A model generated the notes under the pieces. It was not told the DNA's origin. It was given only the letters and a program-made list of their open reading frames with translations, and made no database searches. Below, piece by piece: positions 43,043 through 47,077 of a stretch of DNA of 64,000 nt (its first letter is position 1; each line of letters opens with the position of its first letter). Both the position numbers and the translations under genes were made by a program. This stretch comes from an uncultured Pelagibacteraceae bacterium (GTDB taxonomy: Bacteria; Pseudomonadota; Alphaproteobacteria; Pelagibacterales; Pelagibacteraceae). The DNA lies in NCBI GenBank assembly GCA_902546145.1, contig CACCIT010000001.1:62001-126000 (forward strand). Direction: 5' to 3'.

Positions 43043-43070
43043 AATTAAAGACTATAATATTTTAAAATAA

Positions 43071-43132
43071 TATGAACAAAGAAAACGCAAGTAAACTCTG
43101 GAAAATTATTCAGGAAGCTGGCGATTATTTGG
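43071..43132 (+). repeat. Left copy of a 62-bp perfect direct repeat flanking the accessory island
   Basis: Identical base for base to 46849-46910; contains the 5' end of the 46850-47077 gene. Confidence 0.97.
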
Positions 43133-43140
43133 GGGAATAG
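43072..43140 (+). pseudogene. Truncated 5' copy of the ORF6C-like gene (MNKENASKLWKIIQEAGDYLGE*)
   Basis: First 20 codons identical to the gene at 46850, then an in-frame TAG at 43138-43140. Confidence 0.93.
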
Positions 43141-43156
43141 AGGGACACCCTACTAC

Positions 43157-43184
43157 ACACTACTTCACACTAGTAGACACTAGT
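43157..43184. repeat. Three ACACTA(C/G)T units at exact 10-bp spacing (possible recombinase/protein-binding iterons)
   Basis: ACACTACT 43157-43164, ACACTAGT 43167-43174, ACACTAGT 43177-43184; GACACCCTA also at 43144-43152 and 43308-43316. Confidence 0.75.
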
Positions 43185-43192
43185 TATGCGAA

Positions 43193-43288
43193 TAATTAAA
43201 ATTTGTATTAAAATAAATCGCATAAAGACTCATCGATTTAATCAAAAAACTTGAATACAGACTTGAAACAAATTAGATAAATCAAATA
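43193..43288 (+). repeat. Left copy of a ~96-bp imperfect direct repeat (R2) bounding the cargo
   Basis: Aligns without gaps to 46609-46704 with about 7 mismatches; includes acttgaaacaaattagataaatcaa. Confidence 0.9.
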
Positions 43289-43379
43289 CATGTTTTTCAA
43301 GCAATTAGACACCCTATTAAGGATTTGGTAATCTTGGTTATGAGTTTAAGTGCTGAACTTAAAAAAAAAATAATAAAAT

Positions 43380-43589
43380 CTAAATTTTATAATCTTTTCT
43401 CCATTTATTTGTAATCTTTGTTATGGCTCTATTTTGTGGATGATTATCACTAAAACCGTTTTCACCTGAAATACCAGCGTTGTGACAATTAGATGCTATA
43501 ACTTTTATTTCATCAGCTAATTTATCATCATTGTATTTTTTTTTTATGATTGTTGAAATTGAAAATACAGCATGTTCAATAGGTCCCAT
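43380..43589 (-). CDS. Small protein (69 aa) of unknown function, last gene of the island operon
   Basis: ORF preceded by AAAGGAGTAATAATG-type Shine-Dalgarno, 17 nt downstream of the GHKL ATPase gene on the same strand. Confidence 0.65.
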   Translation of the reverse strand: MGPIEHAVFSISTIIKKKYNDDKLADEIKVIASNCHNAGISGENGFSDNHPQNRAITKITNKWRKDYKI

Positions 43590-43606
43590 TATTACTCCTT
43601 TCTAAA

Positions 43607-45586
43607 TTAGATTTCCGAAACTCTAGATTTCTCTTTTTCAATTCTTGATTTTAGATCAATTACTTTTTTTGAACCAAAAGACATAAATTTATCCTCTACA
43701 TAAATTTTGTGAATTGCATCTGCATATTTATTTTGAAGTTCATTTGCATATTTATTAATAGCATCTGGTCCAGCTACTAATGGTGTATATTTTCCAGTTT
43801 CTATAGCCCTTTTTGCAACAGCTTTTGAGACAGCCTCTAAAACTAACTCTGCTTGCATCACTTGACCACCAGGAGTATCCAATCCTTTGCCACCTTCTCC
43901 GAGATATAAACTTACTGATGGAGATTTAATAAAAATTACTACATTGTTTTCTGAGTCAAACATAACTCTTTGCTTAACCCCTTCCCTTGGATCGTATTTA
44001 ATATCGTTTATGAAACCACCTCTTTTCTTTGGCTTAGGGTTTGGATTAGGATTTCTAACAGTTTTAGCTACAGAGTGTAAAAGAGTTTGTGCTTCATTAC
44101 TTTCGAAATTAGCAGTTAAAACATTATCGCTACCAACTTGTCCTCCTTCAACTCTAACAGTAGCTTTAACAAGATCTTCCCACTCTGTTTCTTGAAAAGC
44201 AACATCTTTAGTTACAACATTTAATTTCTGCTCTTCAGATGAAAAACTTACAACGTCACCTTCTTTAGCTATGCTAGTATTAGCATAAACTGAAATACTG
44301 TTTGTTTTATTTGAAATTATTGAAAAATATTCTGACAGGAAACCAAACCCATTATTAGGTCTAGGTTTATTTTTTCCCTGAGTTACAACTGGACCTAAAT
44401 CATTTTCACCTAAGAGTTCTTTAAATAATTCATTTATTTTATTTACTGACTCTTCTATTTTAACTTTATGTTTTTTGTCTAATTGACCTTTCCTACTATT
44501 TTGAATTTCTCTTCTTTTCGCATCTATAAAAGGTTTAATTTTTTCAATTACAGTTTCTTTTAAAGCTTTCATGAAGTCGTGATTCCAATTAGGACCAGTT
44601 CTATTAGTTGAAAATACAACTTCATCTCTTAATGCAAGTTCTCTTATATGTGGACAATCACACGTTCCATAAAAAAAAGAAAATGCTTCGTCAGCTGACC
44701 AATCAAATGCGGTATTATCTACTGCTAATCCTTGGGTATAAAAGACTATTCCAGATAAAGCAGACTCCTTTTCTTCGGAAACTGTAGTTAATTCTTCCTT
44801 ACATTCATTTAATTCTAAATTTATCTTTATATCAGGGAAATTTTTAACTGAAACTTCCTCATTTAGAATATTTTTTGATTTAGGATAATTAAATTCTAAA
44901 ACTCTTTCATGAAGAACTCTTTTTCCTCTAGTTGACTTAAAATTAATAGATCTATTTGGATCAGCTATTATATGTCTTATCTCAAAATGTGTCTGTAGTT
45001 GTTCCCTCAACTGTTCATACTGAGTTATTGTTCTTATTTTTGAACAATCTGCAACAACCAAAGTACCATTTTTTTTATGTATTCCTAATTCTGATCTTAT
45101 TTTTTTATTAGCTGATTTCTGTGGGTGTTTAAATAATTTTGGTTTTCTTTTTTTTGTATAGACATCAATTCTATTATATTTGCCATCTTTAATTGTATGT
45201 ACAGTTCCAGAACCAAGTCCCAATAAAGATTGAATCAATCCTCTTCCCCAAAGTCCTCTTACACTTCTTCCTTTTTGAGTATTATCAAATCCACTAGTTG
45301 AAGCTGCGTAAGTTCTTATTTTTTTCTCTAACTCATCCTCACCCATTCCTTCTGCAAAATCTCTAAATTTTAAAATTGCACTATCTAGTTTTCTTTCATA
45401 TTCAATTTCAATTTTTCCATTAATTTTTGCATTTTTATTTTCTAATCTTTTATAACTATCATCAGGATTTGTTGTTAATTCAATTGCTGCTCTTTTTAAA
45501 TCACCTCTTATTGTGTCATTCGCATCTGTAGTTAGCAACCTATCGTCTATCTTAAAATCTAATTCTTCACCTTTTTTTGCTACCAT
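43607..45586 (-). CDS. GHKL-type ATPase (MutL/Hsp90/MORC-like), putative conflict-system protein
   Basis: N-box-like KRAAIELTTNPDDSYKR, FRDFAEGMGEDEL (motif 1-like), GRSVRGLWGRGLIQSLLGLGSG (glycine lid-like); a later NRTGPNWNHDFMKAL segment resembles an S5-type transducer region. Confidence 0.78.
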   Translation of the reverse strand: MVAKKGEELDFKIDDRLLTTDANDTIRGDLKRAAIELTTNPDDSYKRLENKNAKINGKIEIEYERKLDSAILKFRDFAEGMGEDELEKKIRTYAASTSGFDNTQKGRSVRGLWGRGLIQSLLGLGSGTVHTIKDGKYNRIDVYTKKRKPKLFKHPQKSANKKIRSELGIHKKNGTLVVADCSKIRTITQYEQLREQLQTHFEIRHIIADPNRSINFKSTRGKRVLHERVLEFNYPKSKNILNEEVSVKNFPDIKINLELNECKEELTTVSEEKESALSGIVFYTQGLAVDNTAFDWSADEAFSFFYGTCDCPHIRELALRDEVVFSTNRTGPNWNHDFMKALKETVIEKIKPFIDAKRREIQNSRKGQLDKKHKVKIEESVNKINELFKELLGENDLGPVVTQGKNKPRPNNGFGFLSEYFSIISNKTNSISVYANTSIAKEGDVVSFSSEEQKLNVVTKDVAFQETEWEDLVKATVRVEGGQVGSDNVLTANFESNEAQTLLHSVAKTVRNPNPNPKPKKRGGFINDIKYDPREGVKQRVMFDSENNVVIFIKSPSVSLYLGEGGKGLDTPGGQVMQAELVLEAVSKAVAKRAIETGKYTPLVAGPDAINKYANELQNKYADAIHKIYVEDKFMSFGSKKVIDLKSRIEKEKSRVSEI

Positions 45587-45587
45587 A

Positions 45588-46247
45588 TTATTTATTTAGC
45601 TTTTTAAGCATACCTCCTGAATATTTGTCATCGTTGTTTGTGGAAAATAGAAACACATATTTTTCTTTTAAATCATCTAAGAAATTGATCATATCATCTC
45701 TGTTACAAGCTTTAAGATGTTGCGTTAATTCAATAAATGATCTGTTGAGCATTTCAGACGAGCTTTCCATTGTGCAATGTAATATTTCTCTCAAATCAAA
45801 TTCTGTAACATCTAAAATGCTTTTTGAATTTAAAAATTTTTTATAACCATCTGAATTTTCCATTATATTAACGATTTTACCAGATCTTGTCCTGTTATCT
45901 TTATTTGTTTTGATCGATGATTTAATTTTTAATTTCTGCTCAGTTATTTTTACTAAATCAACACCCTTTGGAAGGACTGTAAATCCACTTTTATTGTTTC
46001 CAGAAATATAATCTAAATGTCTACAATCAACCCATCTTTTATCTATAACAGCTGAGTCAGGCCAATCTTCATGTCCCCTTAATCCAAACTTTTTAGGAAA
46101 CATTTTAAAAGCTCCAAGAACTAGTTCTTCTCTTGTTATTGACCTATTTTGTTCACATAATTTATGTGCTGTATAAACGATCAGCTCATTCATACCTACA
46201 TCAATATATTTATTTTCTTCAAACATTTTTAAATCTTCTAATCTCAT
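45588..46247 (-). CDS. Winged-helix-like protein, partner of the GHKL ATPase
   Basis: ITREELVLGAFKMFPKKFGLRGHEDWPDSAVIDKRWVDCRHLDYISGNNKSGFTVLPKGVDLVK reads like a wHTH; 1-nt overlap (TAATG) with the upstream gene and 1-nt gap to the ATPase gene. Confidence 0.7.
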   Translation of the reverse strand: MRLEDLKMFEENKYIDVGMNELIVYTAHKLCEQNRSITREELVLGAFKMFPKKFGLRGHEDWPDSAVIDKRWVDCRHLDYISGNNKSGFTVLPKGVDLVKITEQKLKIKSSIKTNKDNRTRSGKIVNIMENSDGYKKFLNSKSILDVTEFDLREILHCTMESSSEMLNRSFIELTQHLKACNRDDMINFLDDLKEKYVFLFSTNNDDKYSGGMLKKLNK

Positions 46248-46468
46248 TATGTAAAATCAAACTCATCTCTTTCTCTTCCAGTTTTTGAGTTTCTAAACTT
46301 ATGTTTTATTACTCTTACTTCTTTTTCAAGCGCGCTAATAATTTGCTCAGCTTCATCTGTTGAGTAAGCGTAATGACTTTTATTAGCTAAATTACCAATG
46401 AGCTTAATAGTTTTAATTGCTTTGTTAGTTCTGCTTTTTGCAAGTTCTCTAAATTTTTTATCTTTCAT
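46247..46468 (-). CDS. Small helical protein (73 aa), first gene of the island operon
   Basis: Starts at MKDKKFRELAKSR... 7 nt after a -10 element; the track's longer start (46522) lies upstream of the promoter elements. Confidence 0.7.
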   Translation of the reverse strand: MKDKKFRELAKSRTNKAIKTIKLIGNLANKSHYAYSTDEAEQIISALEKEVRVIKHKFRNSKTGRERDEFDFT

Positions 46469-46475
46469 TGTATTT

Positions 46476-46504
46476 AATATATGTTGCCATATGGCATATG
46501 TCAA
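46476..46504 (-). promoter_or_regulatory. Near-consensus sigma-70 promoter TTGACA-N17-TATATT with 12-bp palindrome TGCCATATGGCA in the spacer
   Basis: Minus strand: TTGACAtatgccatatggcaacaTATATTaaatacaATG; -35 at 46499-46504, -10 at 46476-46481, palindrome at 46485-46496. Confidence 0.8.
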
Positions 46505-46608
46505 GTGTAAATAATTATACAACCTATAGACTAATCATTATTTAAACCTATATTTACAACAATATTTAGACGAGTATCTTTTTAATTAATTATAAATAAG
46601 AAAGCAGA

Positions 46609-46704
46609 TAATTAAAATTTTTATTAAAATAAATTGTATAAAGACTCATCTATTTAATTAAAAAACTTAAATACATACTTGAAACAAATTAGATAAATCA
46701 AATA
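46609..46704 (+). repeat. Right copy of the ~96-bp imperfect direct repeat (R2)
   Basis: See 43193-43288. Confidence 0.9.
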
Positions 46705-46781
46705 GCTATTGAGTGTGTGCAAAAAATCTATAGCTCTTAAATATCATTTATTTATTGAGTCGTTTTGACTCGTTAAATATA

Positions 46782-46837
46782 TTATAGGATTTTATAGGAT
46801 AACTTGAAACAAACTTGAAACAAACGAGATAAATCAA
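46782..46837. repeat. Right-end short repeats: TTATAGGAT x2 at 10-bp spacing, then ACTTGAAACAA x2 in tandem, the second within a third copy of the acttgaaacaaa..agataaatcaa motif
   Basis: 46782-46790 and 46792-46800; 46802-46812 and 46813-46823; full motif 46813-46837. Confidence 0.75.
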
Positions 46838-46848
46838 GGTATAAGTAG

Positions 46849-46910
46849 TATGAACAAAGAAAACGCAAGTAAACTCTGGAAAATTATTCAGGAAGCTGGC
46901 GATTATTTGG
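46849..46910 (+). repeat. Right copy of the 62-bp perfect direct repeat
   Basis: Identical to 43071-43132. Confidence 0.97.
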
Positions 46911-47077
46911 TGGGACAATTACCTGACCATCCAAATCACCCTAAAGGAAGAAACCCCTATGCTCATGTTGCTATCTGTGTGAAGAGTAAATTCAATGCAA
47001 GTTATAAGGATATTCCTGATGAAAAATTTGATGAAGTTATAAAGTATATTGAGTTTTTAAAAGAAAATCCTAGTTAG
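46850..47077 (+). CDS. Small protein with ORF6C-like C-terminal motif (SYKDIPDEKFDEVIKYIEFL)
   Basis: Complete 75-aa ORF; the C-terminal part resembles the ORF6C domain of phage-associated regulators. Confidence 0.7.
   Translation: MNKENASKLWKIIQEAGDYLVGQLPDHPNHPKGRNPYAHVAICVKSKFNASYKDIPDEKFDEVIKYIEFLKENPS

Follow-up and report, generated by a model that had tools for sequence, protein, structure and literature searches.

GHKL ATPases have been known from restriction operons since 2008 (Iyer et al. 2008, PMC2292703), in a paper that gives GhXhhpXXRhl as the MORC-defining motif and in which 'CPel' appears in the legend of Fig. 2. Some conflict GHKL ATPases carry a C-terminal nuclease, as do paraMORC3 (PMC2292703) and GHKL-Shedu of Vibrio cholerae (PMC12137116), while CapK (HTH-STAS-GHKL) and CapS (STAS-wHTH, where wHTH stands for winged helix-turn-helix) form a regulatory switch upstream of immune operons (PMC13373217). 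Also described are the mzaABCDE-like systems, in which mzaA encodes a sigma factor (PMC9523054, citing Gao 2020), and PDC-M33, a phage-defense candidate in PADLOC. Here we describe an operon in the window, by which we mean the whole stretch of 64,000 nucleotides (nt) analyzed from an uncultured Pelagibacteraceae bacterium (0.9-Mb assembly, 62% complete). Low GC, gene content and the 1.2-1.5-Mb genomes of its complete relatives suggest a SAR11/Pelagibacter-like organism. The core of the operon encodes a small charged protein of 73 amino acids (aa), a 219-aa protein and a 659-aa GHKL ATPase, and we read it as a mobile, autoregulated DNA-conflict operon, probably anti-phage or anti-plasmid (probability about 0.6, judged from sequence comparisons). 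The small protein gives a handle on the role that GHKL ATPases have in restriction operons.

With PDC-M33 the window shares the same small-protein family, directly upstream of the GHKL-type ATPase M33A, and a sporadic distribution that includes plasmids and restriction neighbors. It differs in having a wHTH gene instead of an M33B or M33C homologue, and in an ATPase that is not detectably related to M33A beyond the GHKL motifs. MORC and paraMORC proteins resemble the window system in their GHKL and S5-like architecture, in sporadic distribution, and in the methylase, Vsr and endonuclease contexts seen among relatives, the comparison with paraMORC families 1-5 being one of general GHKL and S5 architecture only, whereas the window operon lacks a helicase, methylase and nuclease; the available passages of PMC2292703 describe neither the small protein nor the wHTH partner. 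As for the mzaABCDE-like systems, the related loci L021 and L062, from two distant alphaproteobacteria, have downstream of the GHKL gene a fourth gene (5475-7553 in L021, 9190-10962 in L062) for a 590-692-aa protein with RNA-polymerase alpha C-terminal domain and sigma-70 region 4 domains, which weakly matches MzaA; in contrast, the window has no such sigma-like gene, and the Z1, AIPR and methylase genes described for these systems are absent from its island.

A sequence-only reading of the locus had called it an undescribed conflict operon with a MORC/MutL-like GHKL ATPase. The GHKL assignment stands, and profile searches gave no housekeeping GHKL assignment, but 'MORC' proved too specific because the MORC-defining motif is absent, both from the window (GIVFYTQGLAV, without Arg) and from all SAR11 relatives tested. 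The word 'undescribed' holds for the three-gene variant, since the operon was no exact match to a named system when compared with defense models, but not for GHKL restriction operons, described in 2008, nor for the commonest neighborhood of the small protein, which is PDC-M33. As far as libraries and papers show, what is new is the wHTH three-gene variant, the recognition that the small protein recurs beside several types of GHKL ATPase as their partner, and a hotspot with an empty site.

Gene content and conserved core

The window operon consists of four open reading frames (ORFs) on the minus strand, at 43380-46468:

46247..46468, minus strand: gene 1, small charged protein of 73 aa, which opens the operon and belongs to a widespread family for which Pfam has no model
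45588..46247, minus strand: gene 2, 219-aa protein with a predicted N-terminal winged helix (residues ~19-106) and a helical C-terminal part, from AlphaFold2, Foldseek and the family alignment
43607..45586, minus strand: gene 3, 659-aa GHKL ATPase with an S5-like segment and a C-terminal region (~390-659) without a family match
43380..43589, minus strand: gene 4, 69-aa orphan ORF outside the conserved core

The 1-nt overlap, 1-nt gap and 17-nt gap that had been reported between these genes are exact in the ORF list; gene 1 starts at the ATG at 46468, and the 91-aa form that is also listed is a TTG extension of it. The genes are under purifying selection, with a ratio of nonsynonymous to synonymous substitution rates (dN/dS) of 0.05-0.20 in the pairs for which it could be computed. 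Direct family scans of the window proteins against Pfam, NCBIfam, PADLOC and PHROGs gave no convincing match. The sequence-only reading had been right about an operon standing alone as island cargo and about GHKL signatures with an S5-like segment in the 659-aa protein, and is supported on a wHTH in the 219-aa protein, for which the evidence follows. The small and wHTH genes, whose co-occurrence with the ATPase it had proposed as a check, do occur together with it in many genomes. The reading erred in counting the 69-aa gene into the unit: this ORF is missing from related loci and has no homologues in 201 genus genomes, and was rejected as a part of the system on that ground. With a length that exceeds chance expectation (P ~0.002-0.006), it may nevertheless be a real orphan gene.

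The order small protein, 219-aa-type protein and GHKL ATPase recurs in eight complete loci of the window genus (the window, L005, L006, L018, L019, L021, L022 and L197) and in a ninth that is divided by contig ends, with the small gene and a partial wHTH gene in L020 and the ATPase in L198; L062, from another alphaproteobacterial family, has the core in the same order. These three genes are the conserved core, to which the 69-aa gene does not belong. When 197 genomes of the order were searched with the ATPase, two distant ATPases were found (28% identity), each in a locus with a 73-76-aa protein, a ~220-aa protein and a ~760-aa ATPase, in that order. The window ATPase is only ~23% identical to its relatives, and further genus loci came from a search with the small-protein profile. 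The wHTH variant is rare, since a search of 299 genomes of the phylum with its profile gave matches in the window genome alone; beyond the genus it is represented by L062 only. Two window-genus loci carry modification genes, namely a C5 methylase with Vsr (L024) and an N4/N6 methylase with an integrase-like ORF (L023).

In the 659-aa protein the N-box reads E36-LTT-N40-PD-D43-S, the D-x-G-x-G motif D76FAEG80M (with the first Gly replaced by Ala) and the lid RGLWGRG (110-116), followed by NGT at 173-175, and the residues E36, N40, D43, D76, G80, R110, G116, N173 and G174 are invariant among five relatives. No Pfam model matched the window protein directly. A five-sequence SAR11 ATPase profile aligned by hhalign with the ATPases of L021, L022 and L062 over 278 columns (P 98.4%, E 5e-15); these match HATPase_c_3 (3e-13 for the L022 protein) and, used as a profile, reach gyrase B (3.6e-6), HtpG (7e-6) and, weakly, MutL (0.013). 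The AlphaFold2 model is of low confidence, with a mean predicted local distance difference test score (pLDDT) of 46, and its top Foldseek matches, to Hsp90-, MORC- and gyrase (GyrB)-type structures, serve as support only, the model being poor. By its profile links to GHKL proteins, together with these structural neighbors of a low-confidence model, the window ATPase is a GHKL protein with an S5-like segment. We do not claim one ATPase family for the window, PDC-M33A and 820-aa types, because hhalign comparisons of the window type with the other two were not significant.

The 219-aa protein gave a better model (pLDDT 77.8), in which helices (H) and strands (E) at H19-33, H39-49, E59-63, H65-77, E81-84, E88-91 and H93-106 follow the winged-helix order H-H-E-H-E-E-H. 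Its Foldseek neighbors are mostly wHTH proteins (MukF, MarR, MntR), with probabilities of up to 0.99 and no E-value below 0.04, and from this model a winged-helix fold is likely.

The operon occupies an insertion unit of 3,778 bp, flanked by a 71-bp direct repeat (96% identity) that derives from a host gene:

43065..43135, plus strand: left copy of the 71-bp repeat, a truncated 5' end (~20 codons) of the 75-aa host gene
46843..46913, plus strand: right copy of the 71-bp repeat, the start of the intact 75-aa gene
46850..47077, plus strand: 75-aa host gene, intact, with the target of integration at its 5' end; not interrupted in G020 and other relatives

In G020, a complete relative, these flanking genes are present without an insertion, and its single repeat copy aligns with both window copies. 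A housekeeping role was rejected because this relative, with the same flanks, has no unit. Different versions of the small, wHTH and ATPase genes are present at the same site in G058, G299, G1091 and G342 (in G342 over two contig ends), and other cargo in G011 and G013; since the genomes were partly found through the cassette genes themselves, site frequencies are biased upward. For a streamlined marine lineage, the site documents a hotspot of conflict genes in which the empty state is clean and the core occurs as several alternative alleles.

The small protein and its GHKL partners

Members of the small-protein family share the motif K.F..LA..R.N.AIK.I.LIGNL.N[KR]..Y.Y, and Pfam gave no convincing match for any of 13 members. 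Its profile matched in 9 of 399 genomes of a phylum-wide draw and 15 of 289 of a class-wide draw, counts that include the window genome and a few weak matches. A scan of 85,462 species genomes yielded 156 relatives, for 80 of which the loci were fetched. They come from Pseudomonadota and from records titled Dadabacteria, Bacteroidetes, Planctomycetaceae, Verrucomicrobia, Nitrospira, Fimbriimonadaceae, Gemmatimonadetes, Obscuribacterales and Desulfobacteraceae, several of which are metagenome bins, for which an erroneous taxonomy is possible; matches on plasmids extend the family to Bacillota, Actinomycetota and Deinococcus, so that it spans ~10 phyla. The protein was found in no phage record, and is present in three viral contigs, of which L050 also encodes a GHKL ATPase and a C5 methylase. 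For the window ATPase, tblastn against phages and plasmids and a scan of viral contigs gave no match.

Directly downstream of the small gene (within 1.6 kb on the same strand, with mechanical ORF calling), one of five GHKL-type profiles matched in 99 of 109 loci. These profiles were built from members of the same locus set, and the commonest downstream class (77 loci) is assigned to GHKL from its E-x3-N-x2-D motif rather than from Pfam. The ten exceptions include L020, which ends with its contig, and L023, where an 803-aa protein is GHKL-like by motif. In L063 (9609-10070) a member of the small-protein family is followed by a protein with a DUF262/GmrSD-like N-terminus, as judged by eye, and not by a GHKL ATPase. 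Standing beside several dissimilar GHKL types, the small protein offers a marker by which these systems can be located and a natural partner to include in biochemical work.

The surroundings are of the conflict type that the sequence-only reading had proposed: besides GHKL ATPases, relatives of the small protein adjoin C5 methylases, Vsr, MutH/Sau3AI, AlwI and other type II endonucleases, and Shedu. Their commonest neighborhood consists of the small protein, an ATPase of ~630 aa and proteins of ~280 and ~250 aa, the last three matching PADLOC PDC-M33A, B and C (1e-107, 2.5e-40 and 7e-30), while the small protein itself has no PADLOC M33 match. The third of the PDC-M33 proteins, M33C, includes DUF6339, and no literature on DUF6339 or PDC-M33 was found. 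On plasmids the arrangement stands beside a MutH/Sau3AI endonuclease and dcm (Priestia), beside AlwI, Vsr and a cytosine methylase (Planococcus), and beside dcm, Vsr, a type II endonuclease and Shedu (Arthrobacter).

Promoter, proposed mechanism and alternatives

Two features lie immediately upstream of gene 1:

46476..46504, minus strand: promoter-like site TTGACA-17-TATATT, the best of the region, with 11 of 12 matches, ending 7 nt before the gene 1 ATG
46485..46496, no strand: perfect palindrome TGCCATATGGCA, inside the promoter spacer, a candidate operator for autoregulation

Promoter-like sites in the region overall are not more numerous than expected by chance. The relative G058 has the same promoter layout, with TGCCACACGGCA as the palindrome at the same place.

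For the conflict-operon reading we count the recurrent gene order, the frequent pairing of the small protein with GHKL ATPases, the restriction neighbors and the PDC-M33 match, as well as the empty site and hotspot alleles, the intact ATPase motifs, purifying selection, the wHTH model and the palindrome. We infer a defense function in which the winged-helix protein would repress its own operon promoter through the spacer palindrome, read invading DNA, or do both. The GHKL ATPase would dimerize on ATP and close as a clamp on invading DNA, in the manner of MutL, Hsp90 and MORC ATPases, and the small protein would be the partner that loads the ATPase or couples it to its target. The clamp itself might then stall or silence the invader, or else it might recruit a nuclease, either from a gene at another location or concealed within the C-terminal region of the ATPase. 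In all eight SAR11-type three-gene loci the operon is free of any recognizable nuclease or methylase, and for this reason we tentatively prefer a clamp that would block or silence foreign DNA without a dedicated nuclease, and as it has only three conserved genes, the SAR11-type form may be the simplest for asking about clamping versus cutting. We regard as rather doubtful the broader proposal that the small protein is a general, hitherto unrecognized subunit of GHKL-ATPase immunity throughout bacteria and that the SAR11 three-gene form is a minimal, nuclease-free version of it, which would act by ATP-driven clamping or silencing as a bacterial counterpart of MORC silencing and would travel on recombinase-less insertions whose end repeats are specific to the element.

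Several observations weigh against a conflict operon. No nuclease, methylase or toxin was recognized in the window operon, in agreement with the sequence-only reading, which leaves the effector step unsupported. PADLOC gave a convincing match for none of the window proteins, the single weak match being that of the small protein (0.0015), which covers part of a 530-aa model. Because the non-significant hhalign comparisons provide no ATPase profile link to the M33A or 820-aa types, only the small protein and the shared GHKL class connect the operon with restriction systems. The palindrome varies, other relatives having differing inverted repeats near the same position, and the cargo of G011 at the 75-aa-gene site includes genes that do not look like defense.

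If the ATPase region ~390-659 were a nuclease, as in paraMORC3 or PMS2-type MutL, the operon would be a self-contained restriction factor that cleaves DNA. The C-terminal nuclease domains of paraMORC3 and of GHKL-Shedu VcSduA, a conflict system that likewise has an N-terminal GHKL ATPase, give this a precedent (PMC2292703, PMC12137116), but VcSduA has its own DUF4263 nuclease, and none was found in the window operon. Pfam, NCBIfam and PADLOC gave no family match for the region, which is less conserved than any other part of the protein, shows no evident E-D-ExK catalytic pattern among its invariant columns and is modeled mostly at pLDDT below 50, so that we consider a cleaving system unlikely. 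A regulatory module resembling CapK/CapS, in which the GHKL protein would phosphorylate or strip the wHTH repressor on DNA damage and so switch the operon or other genes, would account for a wHTH gene that adjoins the GHKL gene and for a strong, palindrome-bearing promoter at the start of the operon, and CapK and CapS do act in this way upstream of immune operons (PMC13373217). Here, however, the unit is alone in its 3.8-kb insertion with no immune operon downstream. Sizes and architecture differ as well: the GHKL protein, which has ~660-780 aa and includes both an S5-like segment and an extended C-terminal part, is unlike a CapK-type kinase, and a Pfam scan found no STAS domain in the window proteins, the 219-aa protein included. 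The small protein and GHKL ATPase also form a pair without a wHTH gene of the window type in most phyla. A regulatory module seems to us improbable. The least probable of the alternatives is selfish maintenance, with the cassette as an addiction or toxin-antitoxin unit that would benefit nothing but the small mobile insertion of which it is the main cargo; a small protein followed by a larger one under an autoregulated promoter is typical of such units, but the small protein keeps its partner class across phyla and restriction systems, and an ATPase of 660-780 aa would be an unusual toxin.

Insertion ends and other cargo

The borders of the window insertion contain several repeated elements:

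43132..43295, plus strand: left end, with CACACTANNT-like iterons, a conserved block, a tandem ACTTGAA-type pair and GATAAATCAAA; nhmmer E=2e-39, with this copy in the training set
46768..46848, plus strand: right end, with AGGATTTTATAGGATA, a tandem pair of ACTTGAAACAA and GAGATAAATCAAG
46602..46709, plus strand: additional, incomplete left-end copy close to the right border, 97 nt at 93%; nhmmer E=1e-12

The extra copy of the left end suggests that insertion took place in a nested or tandem fashion. At the 75-aa gene, seven insertions (the window, L005, L020/L198, L021, L181, L183 and L197) have a common end structure, with CACACTANNT-like iterons and the conserved block on the left and a tandem pair of 11-12-bp repeats at both ends. 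These repeats are mostly ACTNG followed by variable bases, the variable part being specific to the element and largely the same at its left and right ends. The insertions that were read end to end showed no recombinase gene, and the group resembles a family of mobile insertions that lack a recombinase and whose recombination sites are element-specific. This family is not tied to the 75-aa gene, since the same end structure is found at an unrelated target in G011 (L228, 8003-9496), where a recA-like gene lies on one side and an alaS-like gene on the other, the direct repeat measures 25 bp and the cargo is a protein of 371 aa.

At the hotspot itself, G013 (L183, 3305-4682) carries genes for an HNH-like protein that weakly matches PtuB and for a HIT-family, ThsC-like protein (2e-9), possibly a second conflict system to judge from these matches. 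A further cassette of small, wHTH and ATPase genes (L019, 3718-7473) has as its insertion point the 3' end of a gene for an M24 peptidase, where 61 codons of the gene end are duplicated and a 24-bp sequence, TATGTGTCGGTCTTGTGCCGGTTT, itself an imperfect 11-bp tandem, is repeated.

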